Assembly (NCBI RefSeq): GCF_023008165.1
Contig: NZ_JAKQZA010000001.1
Location: 606,796 to 670,795 of the forward strand
Length of the DNA stretch: 64,000 nucleotides
Reading direction: 5' to 3'
Origin: Kordiimonas laminariae
GTDB lineage: Bacteria > Pseudomonadota > Alphaproteobacteria > Sphingomonadales > Kordiimonadaceae
Shown here: positions 7,951 to 19,934 of the stretch, one piece after another
How the letters are laid out: each line of letters begins with the position of its first letter
Position numbering within the stretch: position 1 is the first letter of the stretch
Notes under the pieces: generated by a model
Databases searched by the model: none
What the model saw: the letters and a program-made list of their open reading frames with translations, nothing else
What the model was told of the DNA's origin: nothing
Position numbers and translations under genes: made by a program

Positions 7951-7979
7951 ATAATATTTCGCACATGCAGCAAAATCAA
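7951..7979 (-). promoter_or_regulatory. Probable sigma-70 promoter of sdhCDAB
   Basis: On the minus strand TTGATT (-35) and TATTAT (-10, five of six consensus bases) are separated by 17 bases, leaving a leader of roughly 115 bases before the sdhC start at 7831. No other pair as good was seen in the 200 bases between sdhC and the divergent peptidase gene. Confidence 0.55.
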
Positions 7980-8068
7980 CTGCTCATCAAATTCACGATT
8001 GCCCCGCAATAATTCTACTGTTAATTGTGTGCGCGATTGAACATTTCTACTTGATGGGGGAACGCAGC

Positions 8069-10003
8069 ATGGTTTTTGCTCGCACATTTTTGGTATATTT
8101 CAGCTTCTTAATTTTCGCCTGCACTCATAACGCCCTTGCTTTACCACCACAGGTTCCGACAGAGCGCTTTGCCAGCCTTCCTTCTCTTGATAACGTTAAA
8201 ATCTCTCCCGATGGCACCACGCTCGGTTACCTCATTTCTCATGAGGGCCAACGGTATTTACAGGTAAGAAGTTTTTCCGGAGATAAATTCTTCACCTTAC
8301 CGCCCCTTGATAAGATGGAGATATCCAACTTCTATTGGGGAAATGATGATGTCATTATCATGAAACAGTTGGCGGAAACAAAACGGTTTGGCAATAGAGC
8401 AACCGCTGAAACACGGCTCGTTACCTTCAACACCGCCTCGCAGGAAAGCATTTGGCTCGGCAAACCTAAACGCAAACAAACCGTCGGTACTGGTCGCGAC
8501 CAAATCCCTTCACAACTTGAACAGATCAACGATCTACTACCAAACGACCCTGACCATATACTTGTAGAGTTAGATTTTGAATTAGACGGCAATCCCGCTG
8601 TTTACAAAGTAAACATCAACTCAGGTCGTCGTAAATTAGTTCAGGGCGGACGCAAAGGTATACTGGATTGGCACACCGATCAAAACCATGAAGTTCGCCT
8701 TGGATCTGGTTATGATGATCAGGGAACTTACTATGCACGTTTCAAGAATACAGAAGGCAAATGGATCGACCTGACAAATGTTGATTGGTTCAAATACTAT
8801 TCTGTTGCGGACTTCACACCAAATCCAAACCGACTATATGTTTCAGGCATATCTGAATATGGGACTTACGGCCTGTTTGAGCTCGATCTTCTCAGCGGTG
8901 AAATCGTAAACACACTCTTCACCAATGAAACCGTGGACTATGCTCATCTGCTTCATCACCCTATTACCAACCGTCTCATTGGTGTTGCCTATTATGAAAA
9001 TGGCCTGAAGAAACCGTTTTATTTCGATCCATCCTTCAAGTCTTACCAATCTGTTCTGGACAAAACCATTCAGGGGTCCTCCAATATTCTGGTAAGCCGC
9101 GCAAAAACACAGCCTTATTCTCTTATCTTTTCAAGCAATTCAAAAATCCCAGGGAAATATTTCCTACATAATATGCAAACTGGTACTTTCAATTACCTTG
9201 GAGACAGAATTGATGGCATTAACCCTAAAGAAATGGCCGATGTTCATAGCATCTCAATTCCTGCACGAGACAACGCTTCAATACCAAGTATTCTTACTCT
9301 ACCGCAAGGTTTCGAGAAAGATACCAAGCAGGCTGCAATAATATTGGTGCATGGCGGCCCCAGCGGTCACGATACTGCTCACTGGGATGCTTGGGCACAG
9401 TTTTTGGCAAACCGCGGCTATGTTGTCTTACAACCTAATTTCCGAGGCTCTGACGGCTTCGGATACAAACACGAGCAAGCTGGGAAAAATCAGTGGGGCG
9501 GTGTTATGCAGGATGATGTAACAGACGCCACAAACTGGCTTAAAGATAATGGATATGCCAGTGACTTTTGTATTATGGGCGCTTCATACGGCGGATACGC
9601 AGCATTGATGGGTACCATCAAAGAACCAGCGCTATACCAATGTTCCATTTCTATTAATGGCGCAACCAACCTACCTAGCCTGAATACGCTGGACCGGCGC
9701 TTCCTTGGCGGCAAAAACTGGAGAGTGACCAGAAATCTAGACGGTGAAGTAAACGGTGTTTCGCCCTATCACCGCTCGAAGGAAATTAAAGTCCCCACAC
9801 TCATCATCGCTTCAAAAGATGATGCACGCATTCCGTATACAATGTCGAAGGATATGTATAAGAAACTTAAGAAACAGAAACTAAAAACGAAATATGTCGA
9901 AGTTAAAGATGGTGGCCACAGCATGAACACCGAAGCTGCAAGACTTACAACTCTTAAAGCAGTTGAAAACTTCCTCGGTAAACACTTGCCCGTTTCTGAT
10001 TAA
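8069..10003 (+). CDS. Secreted S9 family peptidase, array member 1
   Basis: Alpha/beta-hydrolase peptidase of the prolyl-oligopeptidase (S9) clan. An N-terminal signal peptide (to about residue 24) is followed by a beta-propeller region and a C-terminal catalytic domain. Numbered from the ATG at 8069, the nucleophile is Ser506 in GASYGG, the acid is in KDDARIP and the base is His617 in DGGHS. The oxyanion-type HGGP and the block QPNFRGSDGFG are present, so it should be active on short peptides in the periplasm or outside. The start at 8069 follows GGGGGA by 7 bases. A GTG at 8027 would add 14 residues before the signal peptide. It opens a four-gene array and is divergent from sdhC. Confidence 0.88.
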   Translation: MVFARTFLVYFSFLIFACTHNALALPPQVPTERFASLPSLDNVKISPDGTTLGYLISHEGQRYLQVRSFSGDKFFTLPPLDKMEISNFYWGNDDVIIMKQLAETKRFGNRATAETRLVTFNTASQESIWLGKPKRKQTVGTGRDQIPSQLEQINDLLPNDPDHILVELDFELDGNPAVYKVNINSGRRKLVQGGRKGILDWHTDQNHEVRLGSGYDDQGTYYARFKNTEGKWIDLTNVDWFKYYSVADFTPNPNRLYVSGISEYGTYGLFELDLLSGEIVNTLFTNETVDYAHLLHHPITNRLIGVAYYENGLKKPFYFDPSFKSYQSVLDKTIQGSSNILVSRAKTQPYSLIFSSNSKIPGKYFLHNMQTGTFNYLGDRIDGINPKEMADVHSISIPARDNASIPSILTLPQGFEKDTKQAAIILVHGGPSGHDTAHWDAWAQFLANRGYVVLQPNFRGSDGFGYKHEQAGKNQWGGVMQDDVTDATNWLKDNGYASDFCIMGASYGGYAALMGTIKEPALYQCSISINGATNLPSLNTLDRRFLGGKNWRVTRNLDGEVNGVSPYHRSKEIKVPTLIIASKDDARIPYTMSKDMYKKLKKQKLKTKYVEVKDGGHSMNTEAARLTTLKAVENFLGKHLPVSD

Positions 10004-10072
10004 ATTTGAGTATACACAACACGCATGCACCGCTTTAGAGAGATCTAGCTACTTTATGAATATGGGGGAAAC

Positions 10073-12043
10073 ATGAAAACTTTTTTCATGATGTGGATTG
10101 CTGGTGTTTTTCTTCTCGGAGCACAGGTTTCTTTAAAACCTGCACAGGCAGAAAACGCTGAATTATTTGCAGAGCTTCCACAATATGAGCAAGCAACCCT
10201 CTCCCCCTCAGGAGATAAAATAGCTCACATATCAACTATTGATGACACACGTTATATTGTGGTTCAGAGCCTTGTTGGCAAACAACCTATTCTCATCCCA
10301 CCATACAAAAAGCTATTGCCTGAACGGCTGATGTGGGCGAATGAAGAAACACTTCTCATATGGCTGTACGTTACAAAAACAGATACCAACATCACTGTTC
10401 ACAGGCTTATTGCTCACAATGTTGTAAGAGGAAAAAGCCGCTGGCTCGGCAAACCCAATGGCAAAAAACAGGAAGCAACTTCATTCCGTGAGGAACTCGT
10501 AGATTTATTACCGAACGACCCCAAGCATGTACTCATCAGCCTCGATTCACAAGACAACTTTCAACGTACGATCTATAAATCCAACCTAACAACTGGCAAA
10601 CATTTGTTGAGAGAAAAAGGCGGCAAGCGCGGTATTCAAACCTGGGTTACTGATCATAATTCAGAGGTACGGTTTGGTTACGGTTCAGACAGACGCAGCA
10701 GCAAAGCAATTTTCACAGATCGTGATAGAACAGGAACCGTCTACAAAACCCGCGCCAGTGAATGGATCAACCTTAACAAACAAAGCTGGTTTGACGGTCT
10801 CTATTTCATTGGATTCACCGATAATACCAACATCATATTGGTAGAATCTCTCACCCAATATGGTACTCGAGGCATTTTCCGTTTTGACATGGCTGCCAAA
10901 AAACTCCTTGAGCCCCTGTTTTCCATGCCGGGGATAGATTATTTGCGGCCTCTTACCAATCCCCTAAATGGCCATATAATCGGGGTCTCCTACCCAGAAA
11001 ACGGTTCAATAAAATACTTTTATTTCGATAAGAAAATGAAGGCCGTACAAGGTACGATAGATAAAGCATTAAAGACGACATCAAATCACATCATAAGCTT
11101 TGCGAAAGATAAGCCGCTATATCTCATCAAAAGCTCGAGCCCACATACACCAGCACAATATTACCTTTATGACCGTGCCAACAAACAAATCAGCTTATGG
11201 GCTCAAAGCTACCCAACTATGACTGAAACTGCTTTAGTTCATACAGAAACACATATCATCACCAATCGAGACAACACTCCGATTGAAACACATATAGCCT
11301 TCCCTAAAGGTTATAAAGAAAACGTGGCAATGCCAGCAATCATGATGCTGCATAATGGCTTATCCAGTTATCAGTCAACAAATTGGGATACGTATAGTGC
11401 CTATCTTAATTCACGTGGCTATATTGTCATTAAACCAAACCCGAGAGGTACGCGTGGCTTTGGTGCAGAACATGAATATGCAGCCAAAAACCAATGGGGC
11501 GGTATACCACAGGATGATATTATCGATGTCGCCAGGTGGTTAAAAAAACAAGGAATTTCAAACAATATTTGCACCATGGGTGTCTGGCATGGAGCCTACT
11601 CAACAGCCATGAGCGCAATTAAAGCCCCTGATACGTTTAAGTGTCTTATCAGCATCAACGGTATATTCGATTTAGCGGAATATAAACGTACCTATTTGGT
11701 AACACACCCAATCACACATGAATTTTGGAACGATTTCATTAGCCTGAAGAACCAACCTGATAAATTTGCCTCTCCTTACCACCGCGCCGACGAAAATAAT
11801 GTACCGGGTTTATATATTTTTGCGGACGACATTCATTCCCCATACAGTCAAAAACCAACGCGTCTGATGTATAAGCGCCTCAAAAAATTAAAAAGACGCG
11901 CAACCTATGTGGAAACGAAAGACGGCGGTATTGCACTCAATACAAAACGCTCAAGATTAAAAGCCTTAACCGCAATTAAAAAGTTCCTAGACGAGGAAAT
12001 GCCTATTCAGGAAAGCGGCATTAAACTGCGTCCTGGAAGATGA
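10073..12043 (+). CDS. S9 peptidase-like protein, array member 2: predicted catalytically dead paralogue
   Basis: A full-length (656 residues) paralogue of its neighbours, with signal peptide, propeller region and hydrolase domain, but with the active site dismantled. Where the others read G-x-S-Y-G-G, this one reads GVWHGA, putting Trp505 in place of the nucleophilic Ser. The catalytic His of DGGHS is replaced by Ile620 (DGGIA). The HGGP loop is HNGL. The reading frame is intact, and a GGGGGAAAC Shine-Dalgarno stands directly before the ATG. Overall fold markers such as KPNPRGTRGFG and ISING are kept. It is therefore a predicted pseudoenzyme and not a frameshifted pseudogene; binding, scaffolding or inhibition of a sister enzyme are possible roles, none shown by the sequence. 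Confidence 0.85.
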   Translation: MKTFFMMWIAGVFLLGAQVSLKPAQAENAELFAELPQYEQATLSPSGDKIAHISTIDDTRYIVVQSLVGKQPILIPPYKKLLPERLMWANEETLLIWLYVTKTDTNITVHRLIAHNVVRGKSRWLGKPNGKKQEATSFREELVDLLPNDPKHVLISLDSQDNFQRTIYKSNLTTGKHLLREKGGKRGIQTWVTDHNSEVRFGYGSDRRSSKAIFTDRDRTGTVYKTRASEWINLNKQSWFDGLYFIGFTDNTNIILVESLTQYGTRGIFRFDMAAKKLLEPLFSMPGIDYLRPLTNPLNGHIIGVSYPENGSIKYFYFDKKMKAVQGTIDKALKTTSNHIISFAKDKPLYLIKSSSPHTPAQYYLYDRANKQISLWAQSYPTMTETALVHTETHIITNRDNTPIETHIAFPKGYKENVAMPAIMMLHNGLSSYQSTNWDTYSAYLNSRGYIVIKPNPRGTRGFGAEHEYAAKNQWGGIPQDDIIDVARWLKKQGISNNICTMGVWHGAYSTAMSAIKAPDTFKCLISINGIFDLAEYKRTYLVTHPITHEFWNDFISLKNQPDKFASPYHRADENNVPGLYIFADDIHSPYSQKPTRLMYKRLKKLKRRATYVETKDGGIALNTKRSRLKALTAIKKFLDEEMPIQESGIKLRPGR

Positions 12044-12171
12044 ACCTAAATGACGATTAGCGCATCAATCAACGGTTGCTCATACTTTTACTTAATCGTT
12101 ATATTTTCTCTACTAACTAAACTTAAAGATGCCATTAGTAATCCATAGTAATATATTTATAGGAGTATCCT

Positions 12172-14103
12172 GTGGGGGGATTTAAGAAATCACTATTAAT
12201 CGCCAGCGCTTTATTTTTCGCTCTGGCCCCGGGTTATGCAACAGACGAAATAATACCAGTAGAAGCCTTTTCAAACTTACCAAATCTCAGCCGCCCCAGG
12301 TTATCTCCCGATGGTAATCAGGTCGCCTATTTCGTTGATCTTCAAGGCCGCAGAGCTTTAATGATTCAACCCTTTGATGGGGAAGAGAGTCAAATTATCC
12401 CATCAGGTGAAAACACTAACCTGACCAGCTTCCGGTGGGCAAACAATCATACCATCGTTCTACAGTATGGCAGCACATGGAAACGTTTTGAGTTTAATAC
12501 AAAAACTTCCGAAACCAGAGTAACTGCTTTCAATCTGAAAACGCGTGAATATACATGGCTCGGACAACCTAAACAGAGCCGCACCAGCAATGCTACGATT
12601 TACACATCACAAAACGAACGTATCGTAGATATGCTCCCACACGATCCCAAGTACATCCTAATGCAAATGGATTTTGAACTTGATGGCCGATCATCTGTCT
12701 ACAAAGTGAACGTAAAAAATGGTCGCAAGCGTGAAATCATTCAAGATCGCCCTGGTATTCAACAGTGGTTCACGGATCAAAACTCGGAAGTCCGCCTTGG
12801 ATTAGGGTATTATGATGATGAATTCCGCATTACCTTTAAAAACCATAAGGGCAACTGGGAAAGCCTAAACCAGGTTGATTGGTATAAAACATACGACATC
12901 GAAGGCTTTACCGCACAACCTAATGTTATTTATGTCAGCGGCCCATCTGAACACGGCACTGACGGATTATATACGCTAGACCTGAATTCAGGCAAAATTA
13001 TTGATACTCTCTTTGAACATAAAGATGTTGATATGAGTAACATTGTAACCCATCCAGTCACCGGAGTAGTTATTGGCGTTGGTTACACTACAGATTTTTA
13101 CCGGGTGAAGTTTTTCGATAAAACCATGGCAAAAATCCAGCGTAGCATTGCCAAAGTCTTAAAGAAGGATATTACCACCCTTACCCATGCGGCAAAAGAA
13201 CAGGAACGCTATCTTTTCCTGTCTTCCAGTGATCAAAATCCTGGCACCTATTATCTTTATGATCGCGGACTAAAAGCTCTCAACGTCATAGCTCCTGTAC
13301 GTGCTCATATTATTCCAGAGCAAATGGGCACCGTTAAAATGGTGAACATAACCGCTCGAGACTCCATAAATATTCCAAGCTTTCTTACTTTCCCAGCAGG
13401 TAAAGAAGACACCAAGAGTCTTCCGGCAATTATTTTACCTCATGGAGGCCCTTTCGGGGTCAGAGATGATGCACATTGGGACTATTGGGCCCAATTTTAT
13501 GCCAGTCGCGGCTACATCGTATTGCAGCCCAATTTTCGTGGATCTGGAGGATATGGCCGGACACACCGCTACTCTGGTTTCAATCAGTGGGGCGGCAAAA
13601 TGCAAGATGATCTAACAGATGCCACTAAATGGCTTATCAGTGAAGGCTACGCTGACCCTGAGCGTATTTGCATTGTTGGTGGATCTTATGGTGGTTATGC
13701 ATCCCTCATGGGTCTGATTACCGAACCTGATCTATATAAATGTGCGATCTCTATTAATGGTGTAACCAATCTGCCGCGTATAAAACGTGATGACAAAAAC
13801 AATAGTATTGGCGGTAGAAACTGGATTAAACGTATGGGCCTAGATGGCGTGGATGATGAACAGGTATCACCCTATCATAGGGCACAAGAAATCAAAGTTC
13901 CGGTCATGCTTATCTCTGCGGAGGATGATACGCGCGTTTCATATCGACAGTCGGGTCAAATGCATACTCGACTCAGAGAACTAGGTAAGGATTCCACTTA
14001 TATCAAACTGGATGACGGTGGTCACAGCTTGGTCACGGCGAAAGCACGTCATACGCTCCTAACCGAAACAGAAAAATTTCTTCAAAAACACATCGGAAAC
14101 TAA
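12172..14103 (+). CDS. Secreted S9 family peptidase, array member 3
   Basis: Starts at GTG, with AGGAG 6 bases upstream; no in-frame ATG lies near the signal peptide. The signal peptide ends around GYATDE (residue 23). The mature protein begins DEIIPVEAFSNLP, almost the same as member 4, which makes these two the closest pair of the array. The catalytic Ser505 is in GGSYGG, the acidic DD in AEDDTRV and His618 in DGGHS; HGGP and QPNFRGSGGYG are complete. This is a predicted active periplasmic or secreted oligopeptidase or dipeptidyl-peptidase-like enzyme; exact specificity is not determinable here. It lies 128 bases after member 2. Confidence 0.88.
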   Translation: MGGFKKSLLIASALFFALAPGYATDEIIPVEAFSNLPNLSRPRLSPDGNQVAYFVDLQGRRALMIQPFDGEESQIIPSGENTNLTSFRWANNHTIVLQYGSTWKRFEFNTKTSETRVTAFNLKTREYTWLGQPKQSRTSNATIYTSQNERIVDMLPHDPKYILMQMDFELDGRSSVYKVNVKNGRKREIIQDRPGIQQWFTDQNSEVRLGLGYYDDEFRITFKNHKGNWESLNQVDWYKTYDIEGFTAQPNVIYVSGPSEHGTDGLYTLDLNSGKIIDTLFEHKDVDMSNIVTHPVTGVVIGVGYTTDFYRVKFFDKTMAKIQRSIAKVLKKDITTLTHAAKEQERYLFLSSSDQNPGTYYLYDRGLKALNVIAPVRAHIIPEQMGTVKMVNITARDSINIPSFLTFPAGKEDTKSLPAIILPHGGPFGVRDDAHWDYWAQFYASRGYIVLQPNFRGSGGYGRTHRYSGFNQWGGKMQDDLTDATKWLISEGYADPERICIVGGSYGGYASLMGLITEPDLYKCAISINGVTNLPRIKRDDKNNSIGGRNWIKRMGLDGVDDEQVSPYHRAQEIKVPVMLISAEDDTRVSYRQSGQMHTRLRELGKDSTYIKLDDGGHSLVTAKARHTLLTETEKFLQKHIGN

Positions 14104-14311
14104 TCTATTGTTTTTATATGCAATTAACTAAAGAGTTGCCGCTTTGGCGGCTGCTCATATTTTCCTATCTACAGATGAACAATAACCGCACACCAAGCCT
14201 TTGCGAACTAAAGTCTTACACTTTAGGAATAATGATGTATAACTCTTGTTGGGGGTAGAAGTCGCCAGATCTTCTACAAAATTGGGCATTCTTATTTTTC
14301 GGGGGAGAAAT

Positions 14312-16225
14312 ATGCTTAGATTTTTGTGCGTATTCACTGCACTTTTCTTCACAATATCCATGGAAGCAAGTGTACTTGCAAAAGACGAAATCATACCAGT
14401 TGAAGCTTTCTCAAAGCTTCCAAATATCAGTCAGCCAAAACTATCACCTAGCGGAACAAAGCTAGGTTTCTTTATCGACCTGAAAGGGAAAAGTGCCCTT
14501 TTTGTGCAAAATATTGACGGTGAGAACCCAAAGGTTATTCCGGCACCTGCAAATACCAGTATTGAGGCCTTCTACTGGAAAACCGACAATATCATGATTT
14601 TAACATCAGGCGGCACCAGTAAACGTGATGAATTTCGCACAAAGGTGCATGAAACACGGGTTCAATCATACAATCTAAAGAAAAACAAACTTCGTTGGCT
14701 TGCTAAACCGAAGAAAAACAAGCGAATGTCACAGAACGAGCGTATCGTGGATCTTCTTATTGATGATCCTGATCATGTGCTTCTGCAAATGGATTTTGAG
14801 CTTGATGGCGCTTCAACCGTTTACAAAGCAAATGTTCATTCTGGTAAATATCGCTCCGTTAAACCTGCACGTCAGGGTATTCAAAACTGGTTTACAGATT
14901 ACAGTTCTGAAGTACGCCTAGGCACAGGTTTCTCAGGAGAAACATTTAACATTCGCTTTAAAAATACTAAAGGCGAATGGCGGGATCTTACGAACACTAG
15001 CTGGTATCAGAAATACACATTTGAAGGTTTCACAACAGATCCAAATATCATTTATGTAAGTGGCCAAACAGATCACGGTACTAATGGCCTTTTCACTCTT
15101 GATCTACAATCCGGTGAAATTGTGGAAAGACTGTTCACCCACGAAATGGTCGATATGGATTTTATTACTTTAAATCCTATCACGAACAAGCCAGCAGGCG
15201 TGACATACACAACTGATTTCCAGCACACGAAATATTTCGATAAAACACTATCAAAAATTCAGCGCAGTATTGCTAAGGCTCTTAAGAGCAAAAACGTTAC
15301 ATTGATCAGCTCTGCCCGCGACAGAGAGCTCTATATGTTTGTGCTCTCTAATGATACGGACCCTGGCAGTTATTATGTATATGACCGGGAAAATAAAAAA
15401 CTGGGTTATTTCGCTTCAGCCAGAGATTTCATTGATCCGAAACAAATGGCTTCAGTATTATCTGTAAACGTCCCAACCCGGGATGATGATGCAGTACCTA
15501 CATACATCACCGTACCAAATGGCATTGAAACACCGAAAAACATGCCAACGATTATCCTACCACACGGTGGTCCATACGGTGTCAGAGATGATGCACACTG
15601 GAATTACTGGACACAGTTTTATGCAAGCCGTGGATACTTGGTAGTTCAGCCTAATTTCCGTGGTTCCGGCGGTTATGGCGACCACCACTATGCCAAAGGC
15701 GTAAAACAGTGGGGTGGTTTGATGCAAGACGATGTTACTGACGCAACAAAGTGGGTTATTGATCAAGGTTATGCTGATCCTGAAAAAGTATGCATTGTTG
15801 GCTGGTCATATGGTGGCTACGCCTCACTTATGGGACCCATCAAGGAACCGGGTCTTTATAAATGTGCTATTTCCATCAACGGTGTTGCCAATCTACCTCG
15901 TCTCAAAGTAACTGACAAAAAAAGCGCTATTGGTGGTAGTGCCTGGATCAAACGAATGGGGCACGAGGACAAAAACGATAGGGACGTTTCCCCTTATCAC
16001 CGTGCATCCGAGTTCAACGTTCCTGTGATGCTTATCGCAACAAAAGATGACGCTCGTGTTCCATATGAACATTCAGCTGATATGCATAAAGCACTGAAAA
16101 AGCAGGGTACAAAGAGCGAATATATCCTGTTCGAAGAAGGCGGGCATTCCATGTATACCTCTGACAACAGAAAGAAGATGTTGGAAGCAACAGAGAAGTT
16201 CCTGAAAGAACATCTTGGTAGCTAA
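14312..16225 (+). CDS. Secreted S9 family peptidase, array member 4
   Basis: The ATG at 14312 is chosen because GGGGGAGA lies 5 bases upstream and a signal peptide (MLRFLCVFTALFFTIS, cleavage near VLAKDE) starts here. An upstream ORF extension to 14246 adds 22 residues with no export signal. The catalytic Ser499 is in GWSYGG, the acidic pair in KDDARVP and His612 in EGGHS. Overall 637 residues. Sequence blocks such as DEIIPVEAFS, DFELDGAS and HGGPYGVRDDAHW are shared with member 3, indicating a recent duplication. It is followed after 41 bases by a DUF3667 gene. Confidence 0.88.
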   Translation: MLRFLCVFTALFFTISMEASVLAKDEIIPVEAFSKLPNISQPKLSPSGTKLGFFIDLKGKSALFVQNIDGENPKVIPAPANTSIEAFYWKTDNIMILTSGGTSKRDEFRTKVHETRVQSYNLKKNKLRWLAKPKKNKRMSQNERIVDLLIDDPDHVLLQMDFELDGASTVYKANVHSGKYRSVKPARQGIQNWFTDYSSEVRLGTGFSGETFNIRFKNTKGEWRDLTNTSWYQKYTFEGFTTDPNIIYVSGQTDHGTNGLFTLDLQSGEIVERLFTHEMVDMDFITLNPITNKPAGVTYTTDFQHTKYFDKTLSKIQRSIAKALKSKNVTLISSARDRELYMFVLSNDTDPGSYYVYDRENKKLGYFASARDFIDPKQMASVLSVNVPTRDDDAVPTYITVPNGIETPKNMPTIILPHGGPYGVRDDAHWNYWTQFYASRGYLVVQPNFRGSGGYGDHHYAKGVKQWGGLMQDDVTDATKWVIDQGYADPEKVCIVGWSYGGYASLMGPIKEPGLYKCAISINGVANLPRLKVTDKKSAIGGSAWIKRMGHEDKNDRDVSPYHRASEFNVPVMLIATKDDARVPYEHSADMHKALKKQGTKSEYILFEEGGHSMYTSDNRKKMLEATEKFLKEHLGS

Positions 16226-18050: not shown

Positions 18051-19880
18051 TTACCAACCACACGAACGGTTTTTGTTTTGCTCATCAAGCCACTCTTTAA
18101 GCGGCGCGAAATACGCCACCACGGAAGAACCATTCATCTCACGTGTTCCTGTAAACACTTCAAGAGCATCAGGCCACGGTTTTGATGAACCTAGTTCCTG
18201 CATCGCCTTGAACTTTGCACCAACTTCCTTGTTGCCGTAGATGGAACAACGGTGCAGCGGTCCTTCCCAACCTGCATCTTCACAGGCTGTCTGGTGGAAT
18301 TGGAACTGCAGAATATGCGCCAGGAAGTAACGTGTGTAAGATGTGTTATTCGGGATATGATATTTAGCACCCGGATCAAACGCATCAGCTGGGCGCTCAT
18401 TCGGTGCTTTCACACCCTGGTATTTCTCACGCAGTTGCCACCAGGCATCATTGTAGCCTGCTGGTGTTACTTCACCAGAAAACACCTTCCAGCGCCACTG
18501 ATCAACCATCAAACCAAACGGCAGAAATGCCACCTTTTCAAGCGCCTGCTTCATAAGAAGTGGAATATCTGCATCAGCCGAAGGCACTTCATCAATCAAG
18601 CCAATTGTTTTCAGATATTCGGGTGTAATGGAAAGCGCGATCATATCACCGATAGCTTCATGGAAACCACCGTGCGCACCGCCTTGATCAAGACCAGACT
18701 GATGTTTGTAAGCACGCTGGTAGATGTTATGGCCAACTTCATGGTGCATGGTTGCAAAATCTTCACCATTCACCTTCGTACACATCTTAATCCGGATATC
18801 ATCCTTAGCATCCAGGTTCCATGCAGAAGCATGGCACTGCACTTCCCGGTCACGCGGTTTTACAAACAGTGAACGTTCCCAGAATGTATCCGGCAGTGGT
18901 TCAAAACCAAGCGACTGGAAGAAGTCGTCCGCCGCACCCGCCATTTTCCTCGCGTCATACCCATTGGCTACAAGGCGCTCAGTGAGATCAAAGGTTTTAG
19001 CGTCACCCTCAGGCTTCACCATATCATAGATATTACCCCAGCTCTGTGCCCACATATTGCCAAGCAGGTGCGCTGGAATAGCTTCAGTTTTTGAAACAAC
19101 TTCATCGCCATAGTTTTCATTAAGCTTGGCCCGTACATGACAGTGAAGAGCATCATAAAGCGGCTTCACCTGTCCCCAAAGACGGTCAGCTTCACCGGCG
19201 AAATCTTCCATTTCATACTGGCCGCGCCACATGCCGCCAATATCATCAAAGCCCATTTCAACGGCGCCTTCGTTTGCAATTTCCACCATGCGCGCATATT
19301 GATCTTTCATCGGCCCAGAAACTTCACGCCAGCCATCCCATGCTTCAAGAAGCTTGGCAGGATCACGTTCTTTTGCGAGCACATCAGAAGCATCACCAAG
19401 TGTAGCTTCTTTACCGTCCAGCGTAAGCTTACCCGTTGCATATGTTGCCCCAAGGTTTGCTTTGATGGTCGCAAGCTCTGCAGTGCGCTCTTTATTCTGG
19501 GGAGCTGGCAGATCAAGAAGGAACTTCAACTTGTTAAACTTCCGGCGTAGTTCAGCAGGCATTTCAACATCATTGAAGCGCTTTGCCTTTGTAGCCAGAT
19601 CAACGGTAAGAAGCGTGAATTTTTCATCAGCACTTGCAGCCAGTTGGTTTGTATCTGTGGTTACGAAATTTGCTTGTACCCAAAGAGCGCGGCCATAGGC
19701 CAAACCTTCAGCATCCAGCTGTTTTTCCGCATCCAAGATAAAAGCCTGAGCTTCCGCAAGCGTTGGCGCTTCTACTTTCGCAATTCGGGTATCAGCAGCA
19801 TTATCAAAACATGCTGCCAGCATCAGTGATGCAGCCGTTAACACCGCAACTTTGGATAATCCGGATTTCATATTCCTCAT
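18051..19880 (-). CDS. M2 family peptidyl-dipeptidase lipoprotein (ACE-like)
   Basis: A zinc metallopeptidase of the angiotensin-converting-enzyme family, which removes C-terminal dipeptides. The zinc motif HEVGH covers residues 380-384 and the downstream HEAIGD supplies the third ligand. The N-terminus is a lipoprotein signal with lipobox LAAC, so the mature protein is membrane-anchored, facing the periplasm or the outside. The start is ATG 19880: AGGAGGGG lies 6 bases upstream and the lipoprotein signal begins there. The longer reading from 19934 would place 18 residues ahead of the signal. At 609 residues it is the usual length of bacterial M2 enzymes. It probably acts with the nearby S9 peptidases in peptide use. 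Confidence 0.93.
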   Translation of the reverse strand: MRNMKSGLSKVAVLTAASLMLAACFDNAADTRIAKVEAPTLAEAQAFILDAEKQLDAEGLAYGRALWVQANFVTTDTNQLAASADEKFTLLTVDLATKAKRFNDVEMPAELRRKFNKLKFLLDLPAPQNKERTAELATIKANLGATYATGKLTLDGKEATLGDASDVLAKERDPAKLLEAWDGWREVSGPMKDQYARMVEIANEGAVEMGFDDIGGMWRGQYEMEDFAGEADRLWGQVKPLYDALHCHVRAKLNENYGDEVVSKTEAIPAHLLGNMWAQSWGNIYDMVKPEGDAKTFDLTERLVANGYDARKMAGAADDFFQSLGFEPLPDTFWERSLFVKPRDREVQCHASAWNLDAKDDIRIKMCTKVNGEDFATMHHEVGHNIYQRAYKHQSGLDQGGAHGGFHEAIGDMIALSITPEYLKTIGLIDEVPSADADIPLLMKQALEKVAFLPFGLMVDQWRWKVFSGEVTPAGYNDAWWQLREKYQGVKAPNERPADAFDPGAKYHIPNNTSYTRYFLAHILQFQFHQTACEDAGWEGPLHRCSIYGNKEVGAKFKAMQELGSSKPWPDALEVFTGTREMNGSSVVAYFAPLKEWLDEQNKNRSCGW

Positions 19881-19904
19881 ATCAAGCCCCTCCTGATAGA
19901 TATT

Positions 19905-19934
19905 GTTATATTTTTCACCTATCCGGTCTGACAA
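19905..19934 (-). promoter_or_regulatory. Candidate promoter of the M2 peptidase gene
   Basis: Minus strand TTGTCA (-35, five of six) and TATAAC (-10, five of six) are 18 bases apart, ending 24 bases before the ATG at 19880 and just upstream of the AGGAGGGG ribosome site. The implied leader is short. Confidence 0.45.

Follow-up and report, generated by a model that had tools for sequence, protein, structure and literature searches.

A putative S9 pseudo-peptidase in a tandem peptidase gene array of Kordiimonas laminariae

Four S9 peptidase homologues lie in tandem in the genome of Kordiimonas laminariae (3.65 Mb), and the second of them, here called copy 2, has kept its reading frame but lost the catalytic nucleophile, the base and the oxyanion loop. 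It is probably, if by no means certainly, an exported pseudo-peptidase, folded and kept for a non-catalytic role in which it binds either peptide or one of the sister enzymes. The evidence for a pseudoenzyme under selection, a plausible reading, is better than that for a dying gene, mainly because of a test of the reading frame against neutral simulation and a pairwise comparison of the two domains.

The array and the copy 2 gene

The window is the whole stretch of DNA analysed (64,000 nucleotides), and coordinates refer to it except where another locus is named.

8027..10003 (+), S9 copy 1 (M1); Ser, Asp and His intact; the closest array sister of copy 2 by trees
10064..10069 (+), GGGGGA, ribosome-binding-like, 3 nt upstream of the copy 2 ATG
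10073..12043 (+), S9 copy 2 (M2), catalytically dead paralogue; 656 aa, ATG start, PF00326 match
10073..10150 (+), probable signal peptide of copy 2, residues 1-26 (AQA|EN), judged by eye; helix 2-16 in the AlphaFold2 model
10154..11248 (+), beta-propeller domain of copy 2, residues ~28-392, from model and alignment; 25 of 28 conserved columns kept
11258..12040 (+), alpha/beta-hydrolase domain of copy 2, residues ~396-656, from profile, model and alignment; 44 of 66 conserved columns kept
12172..14103 (+), S9 copy 3 (M3); triad intact
14246..16225 (+), S9 copy 4 (M4); triad intact; orthologue in the closest relative, G013

All four genes are on the forward strand. The array adjoins a DUF3667 gene (profile match), and the genes beside it are, to judge from their sequence, presumably succinate dehydrogenase genes. 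As the initial annotation had stated, positions 10073-12043 hold an intact S9 paralogue, with an ATG and a frame that stays open for 656 codons; the PF00326 profile identifies it as an S9 homologue (E 8.5e-23; 81.4 bits against a cut-off of 22.6). For the ribosome site that had been reported there is the ribosome-binding-like GGGGGA, which also precedes an in-frame ATG in copies 1 and 4. The N-terminus, judged by eye, likewise fits the signal peptide claimed for it. Gaps of 69 and 128 bp flank copy 2, which is not tightly linked to either neighbour. The Dpp5 model NF053518 gives 57.1 bits with copy 2 and 60.4-90.3 bits with copies 1, 3 and 4, all below its equivalog cut-off of 900. Near the array lies a Peptidase_M2 gene (angiotensin-converting-enzyme family; 18051-19934, reverse strand; 4.2e-214), and together they make up a local peptidase cluster.

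Catalytic residues

Alignment with the sister copies places the following residues of copy 2 at the catalytic positions.

11351..11362 (+), HNGL in place of the HGGP oxyanion loop, residues 427-430
11585..11587 (+), Trp505 (TGG) at the position of the nucleophile Ser; GVWHGAY for GxSYGGY
11828..11830 (+), Asp586, the catalytic Asp, retained; D in 40 of 40 array-clade rows
11930..11932 (+), Ile620 (ATT) at the position of the catalytic His

The substitutions Trp505, Ile620 and HNGL for the Ser, His and HGGP of the sisters thus agree with the initial annotation. Its description of the triad as dismantled holds for the nucleophile and the base and not for Asp586. This residue is the second D of a DD pair, at which the catalytic Asp was read rather than at the first, and its column is invariant in the alignments. 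Copy 2 has therefore lost two of the three triad residues, the loop and also Tyr506, which follows the nucleophile and is now His, so that it has neither the Ser-Asp-His triad nor the HGGP loop of an active S9 peptidase.

In the array clade Ser is found in 39 of 40 rows and His in 38 of 40, and copy 2 alone has another residue at either place; in the remaining row without His (G016_1262) the frame stops upstream of the His position. A changed loop is not by itself diagnostic of inactivity, because three of the 39 other rows have HNGP, HGDP or HSTL loops with Ser and His retained. Two such array copies, with HSTL and HNGP, are at L050 10675-12687 (G002) and L057 3671-5716 (G009). The K. laminariae genome itself gives 18 PF00326 matches, 12 of them full-size S9 genes, and Ser, Asp and His are kept in 11 of these 12 (the three sisters and eight others), the exception being copy 2, whose Asp column is displaced by an alignment gap in this 12-gene comparison.

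Much of the pocket surroundings persists in copy 2: His427, the conserved Arg458/Gly459, Gln474-Gly477, and Cys500 and Cys524, the last two invariant across 27 rows. The retention of Asp586, His427, Arg458/Gly459 and Gln474-Gly477 would suit a neofunctionalised enzyme, in which a pocket with Trp505, His506 and Asp586 runs another reaction or employs another nucleophile. Such an enzyme is improbable here, with no Ser, Cys or Thr to act as nucleophile, Ile in place of the base and the loop altered, and we know of no S9 enzyme with this combination of Trp, Ile and altered loop. An assembly or sequencing error is extremely improbable, the changes being spread across the whole protein with the frame open and the codon-position composition close to that of the sisters.

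Orthologues and phylogeny

Copy 2 shares 33-34% identity with its sisters. These are closer to one another, at 55% between copies 3 and 4 and 44% between copy 1 and either of them. The initial annotation had looked to orthologues for the same substitutions, and on this point it was not borne out: the 18 other genomes of the genus yielded no orthologue, and neither did a scan of a contig database for close relatives. In the search of the genus (19 genomes including its own), the best non-self match among the matches listed has 37% identity over its length, which is the level of a paralogue, and there is one 46-residue fragment at 46% identity. The search for an orthologue also took in 59 genomes of relatives. 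The contig scan, made with copy 2 alone, gave 14 pattern matches, none of them a relative by tblastn. A second contig scan, made with an alignment, used patterns such as SYGGYA; it is biased towards active copies and gives no measure of the number of dead ones.

Trees were built from 73 S9 frames. Removal of five partial frames left a 68-row tree, and removal of 28 rows outside the array group left a 40-row clade. In the 68-row tree copy 2 joins copy 1 (99/82) inside a group with the gene G002_6658 of another species (100/100), and its tip measures 1.94 changes per site as against 0.66 for copy 1. A second tree retains the same group but places copy 1 closer to G002_6658 (90/46). Support for the group of copy 1, copy 2 and G002_6658 is 100/100, 100/98 and 91 in three trees (the 91 as printed after re-rooting), and whether copy 2 or G002_6658 is the nearer to copy 1 depends on the tree. 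Copy 2, though absent from the other genomes searched, is no fresh duplicate, because on either tree its split is about as old as that between copy 1 and the gene of the other species.

Turnover of the array

The closest relative, G013, has an orthologue of copy 4 (97.7% identical) at the same genomic place, and its DNA is 97.1% identical to the window up to position 7973 and 95.4% identical from 14195.

7973..14195 (no strand), 6.2 kb stretch replaced in G013 by ~435 bp, a remnant with copy-1-like and weaker copy-3-like 5' fossils

The copy-1-like N-terminal fossil, interrupted by one in-frame stop, is 59% identical across 39 aa and has a local DNA score of 77, where the highest of 300 shuffles reached 40. 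The copy-3-like 5' fossil is weaker (53 against a shuffle maximum of 45). For copy 2 no trace was found in the remnant, the score of 23 being matched by 251 of 300 shuffles; all these scores were computed without the shared flank. The remnant itself, at L060 ~11050-11500, is flanked by the sdh genes and by copy 4. Since G013 lacks copies 1-3, these can be lost, and in that genome erosion seems to have reduced a larger array to a single gene. Frame-broken array copies at L062 4047-6000 and L063 1262-3201 (in G015 and G016) are further signs of turnover.

Birth and death of this sort would also suit an alternative in which copy 2 is a dying gene that lost catalysis recently, is now free of selection and has not yet had its frame broken. 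The fossils in G013, the broken copies in G015 and G016 and the lack of an orthologue in the 18 other genomes of the genus are what such a gene would leave; the reading frame, discussed below, speaks against it.

Fast turnover of the array might equally suit an arms race, and copy 2 could be imagined as an exported decoy that absorbs inhibitors or peptide antibiotics aimed at its active sisters. Copies 3 and 4 are weak matches to the lasso-peptide isopeptidase model NF033523 (41.0 and 28.9 bits, below the cut-off of 400), which would fit a decoy. Copy 2 itself, however, has no match to this model at E 0.001, and covalent serine-directed inhibitors require the Ser that it lacks, so that we rate a decoy as very improbable.

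Selection and domain divergence

The comparison of dN and dS that the initial annotation had proposed is precluded for copy 2 as a direct estimate, because synonymous sites are saturated against both paralogues tried (copy 1 and G002_6658) and because there is no orthologue. The reading frame was therefore set against neutral simulation (60 copies). At 0.1 amino acid changes per codon the simulated copies carried a mean of 3.3 stops and 5% were stop-free; at 0.2 one of 60 was stop-free, and at 0.5 none of 60 was, with a mean of 13.3 stops. The tip of copy 2 exceeds that of copy 1 by ~0.9 to 1.3 changes per site. Nearly all of the divergence of copy 2 hence built up under selection for an open frame, because this excess is above the 0.5 at which no neutral copy survives. 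The simulation bears on the total divergence and not on the date of the catalytic changes, and with it in hand we hold the dying gene to be rather unlikely.

Copy 2 retains 69 of the 94 columns that are conserved at ≥90% in the other rows. The loss of the remaining 25, which would again suit a dying gene, has no parallel in the array clade, where the next lowest row retains 88% and the median row 96%. These losses reach beyond the catalytic columns and fall unevenly: the propeller has lost 3 of its 28 conserved columns and the hydrolase domain 22 of its 66 (Fisher p 0.024). Without the motif columns the bias is weaker (3 of 28 against 16 of 53, p 0.058).

The pairwise domain test was made on 39 rows, the 40-row clade less the near-identical row of G013. 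Over 703 pairs of other members the mean identity is 36.3% in the propeller and 57.0% in the hydrolase domain, and over the 38 pairs with copy 2 it is 30.4% and 35.5%. Expressed as excess divergence of the hydrolase domain, copy 2 has a z of 5.67 and the next row 1.18. On a fixed tree the propeller tip of copy 2 measures 1.32 and that of copy 1 0.60, and the hydrolase tips 1.40 and 0.28, respectively. The ratio of hydrolase to propeller tip is 1.06 in copy 2, with one of 37 rows higher (1.11) and a median of 0.57. This is the pattern that release from catalysis would predict, and together with the simulation this domain-specific relaxation points to a long-lasting constraint on the frame. Constraint on copy 2 looks weaker throughout, because the propeller has also sped up about twofold.

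Five pairs of related active S9 genes have omega values of 0.07-0.20; the range includes the pair G010/G015 (0.084), whose dS is also near 2, and leaves out the pair of copies 1 and 3 (omega 0.26, dS 2.15) as near saturation. From these we infer a mean omega of ~0.2-0.6 on the copy 2 tip, because, by the branch ratios and with copy 2 placed beside copy 1, this tip is threefold faster.

Predicted structure

AlphaFold2 predicts a complete propeller and hydrolase domain for copy 2 (pLDDT 89.8, pTM 0.89), close to the values for the intact copy 1 (pLDDT 92.2, pTM 0.90), and the order of propeller and then hydrolase is that of S9 peptidases. The best 50 Foldseek matches of the model are S9-type peptidases by their titles, for example 8wt1 and 5l8s (TM 0.73/0.79), and some of these titles we take to belong to family S9. 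The model supports the folding of copy 2 but is no proof of it, because the input alignment consists mostly of active relatives and the fold of the family may appear regardless.

Other inactive S9 genes of the family

Related genomes hold 12 S9 genes with an open frame and a residue other than Ser at the catalytic Ser position, and 11 of the 12 adjoin an intact S9 gene. Those of class A (G003, G011, G022, G020 and G027) have the elbow G[KR][GNL]Y[AG]GY and an altered HGGP loop, and each is directly downstream of an intact S9 gene. They are located at L198 4690-6774, L217 3797-5878, L199 2849-4930, L200 2660-4759 and L201 2636-4726. Gly, Asn or Leu takes the place of Ser in them, and the class is conserved over several of the family's genera. 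Class B (G015, G016 twice, G012, G005 and G008, with G046 beside them in the tree) has GQxGYSSY-like or other elbows. In G015, G016, G012 and G046 the dead gene immediately precedes an intact S9 gene; in G005 and G008 the two are neighbours on opposite strands; for the second dead copy of G016 there is no other S9 frame within the 9.5 kb examined. Dead and live genes overlap by an apparent 4 bp in G022, G012 and G046 and have a zero gap in G015 and G016, starts being assigned mechanically. The loss of Ser is ambiguous in G012 and the second G016 copy, where a shift of one residue could leave Ser at the elbow. His is kept in six of the 12 (G020, G027, G015, the first G016 copy, G012 and G005).

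The dead label, carried by 13 rows of a 40-row tree with copy 2 included, needs four changes. Copy 2, class A and class B would be separate losses, unless Ser was regained, because well-supported branches force three changes. The dead genes of classes A and B sit on other branches of the S9 tree than copy 2 and, unlike it, are represented by orthologues in other species. Identity within four dead orthologue pairs is 68-82%, as against 65-76% for their live partners, with pS of 0.72-0.80 (synonymous sites near saturation) and pN of 0.11-0.22; the single dead pair for which omega could be estimated has a value of 0.10 (G020/G027, dS 2.3). The identities of propeller and hydrolase domain are 0.715/0.683, 0.676/0.718, 0.703/0.676 and 0.872/0.805 in the dead pairs and 0.627/0.752, 0.622/0.748, 0.642/0.786 and 0.751/0.821 in the live pairs, so that the propeller is the better conserved domain in three of four dead pairs and the reverse is true in all four live pairs. 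The class B pair G005/G016b (45.5% identical) was left out, since its proteins have an extra C-terminal part and a cut at the last 262 codons misses the hydrolase domain. Such long class B proteins (1155-1158 aa; L207 2282-5749, L208 4284-7751, L206 1347-4823), in which the triad is not intact, have ~480 residues beyond the S9 domain, with a weak TPR match there in one of them.

The dead genes of both classes look to be under purifying selection. These comparisons show that dead S9 proteins are retained in the family, which is no proof that the same reason applies to copy 2.

Known pseudo-peptidases and the proposed role of copy 2

To our knowledge, the known S9 pseudo-peptidases are DPP6 and DPP10, which serve as channel subunits in animals. 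These are S9B single-pass membrane proteins that modulate Kv4 channels, dimeric, with propeller and alpha/beta-hydrolase domains and the fold kept, in which the catalytic Ser is replaced by Asp (DPP6) or Gly (DPP10) (PMC4350108). DPP10 retains His759 and Asp727 of the triad, and mutation of the replaced residue back to Ser gave no activity in DPP10 or DPP6 (PMC4350108). Copy 2 resembles them in its S9 fold, which in its case is predicted, and in the replacement of the catalytic Ser; unlike DPP10 it has also lost His and the loop, and it is bacterial. DPP6 and DPP10 may be regarded as analogues of copy 2, with membership of family S9 as the evident kinship. With its sisters, copies 1, 3 and 4, copy 2 has in common the architecture and the kept Gln474-Gly477 and Cys500/Cys524, but it differs in the missing nucleophile and base, the changed loop and a much diverged hydrolase domain. 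In a survey of prokaryotes inactive serine protease homologues were 42 of 966 proteins in five families (PMC2605481); those named in the available part of that survey are trypsin, subtilisin, DD-peptidase, Clp and Lon, and S9 is not among them. Among open-licence papers none was found on bacterial dead S9 copies beside live ones.

We propose that copy 2 arose from the lineage of copy 1 in a tandem S9 array of fast turnover, that it then lost nucleophile, base and oxyanion loop, and that it has since been retained as a folded protein under weaker constraint. It would be exported and unable to cut by the S9 mechanism. Its cavity between propeller and hydrolase domain might bind peptide; or it might assemble with a sister S9 peptidase and alter the stability, access or substrate supply of the latter. 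Such a partnership is favoured because the dead genes of classes A and B pair with live ones, and it calls for caution because 69 and 128 bp separate copy 2 from its neighbours.

The initial annotation had argued for a selected function as a binding, regulatory or scaffolding pseudoenzyme. The missing nucleophile and base, the predicted fold, the kept frame, the relaxation of the catalytic domain and the conservation of dead paralogues elsewhere speak for this proposal; the lack of an orthologue that shares the changes, and the loss of copies 1-3 from G013, speak against it. Copy 2 itself is a case in which the hydrolase domain has shed its additional constraint and the frame has been maintained.

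More tentatively, it is possible that the Kordiimonadaceae and their neighbours have at least three times made one gene of an S9 neighbourhood dead but conserved, its product acting together with that of the live gene beside it, perhaps in a live/dead heteromer. If so, bacteria would have arrived by convergence at a counterpart of the DPP4-type enzymes and DPP6/DPP10, with copy 2 as the fastest-changing case. Conserved dead copies of bacterial S9 genes would offer a tractable system for the study of how a peptidase scaffold is reused in binding, and how often. A class-wide search of an evenly drawn sample gave class A dead partners in one of 289 genomes at E 1e-100 (L218, a similarity match only). 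At L202 2483-4603 (G081) there is a relative of class A that has Ser (GKSYAGY) and His with an HQNP loop, a possible intermediate state.
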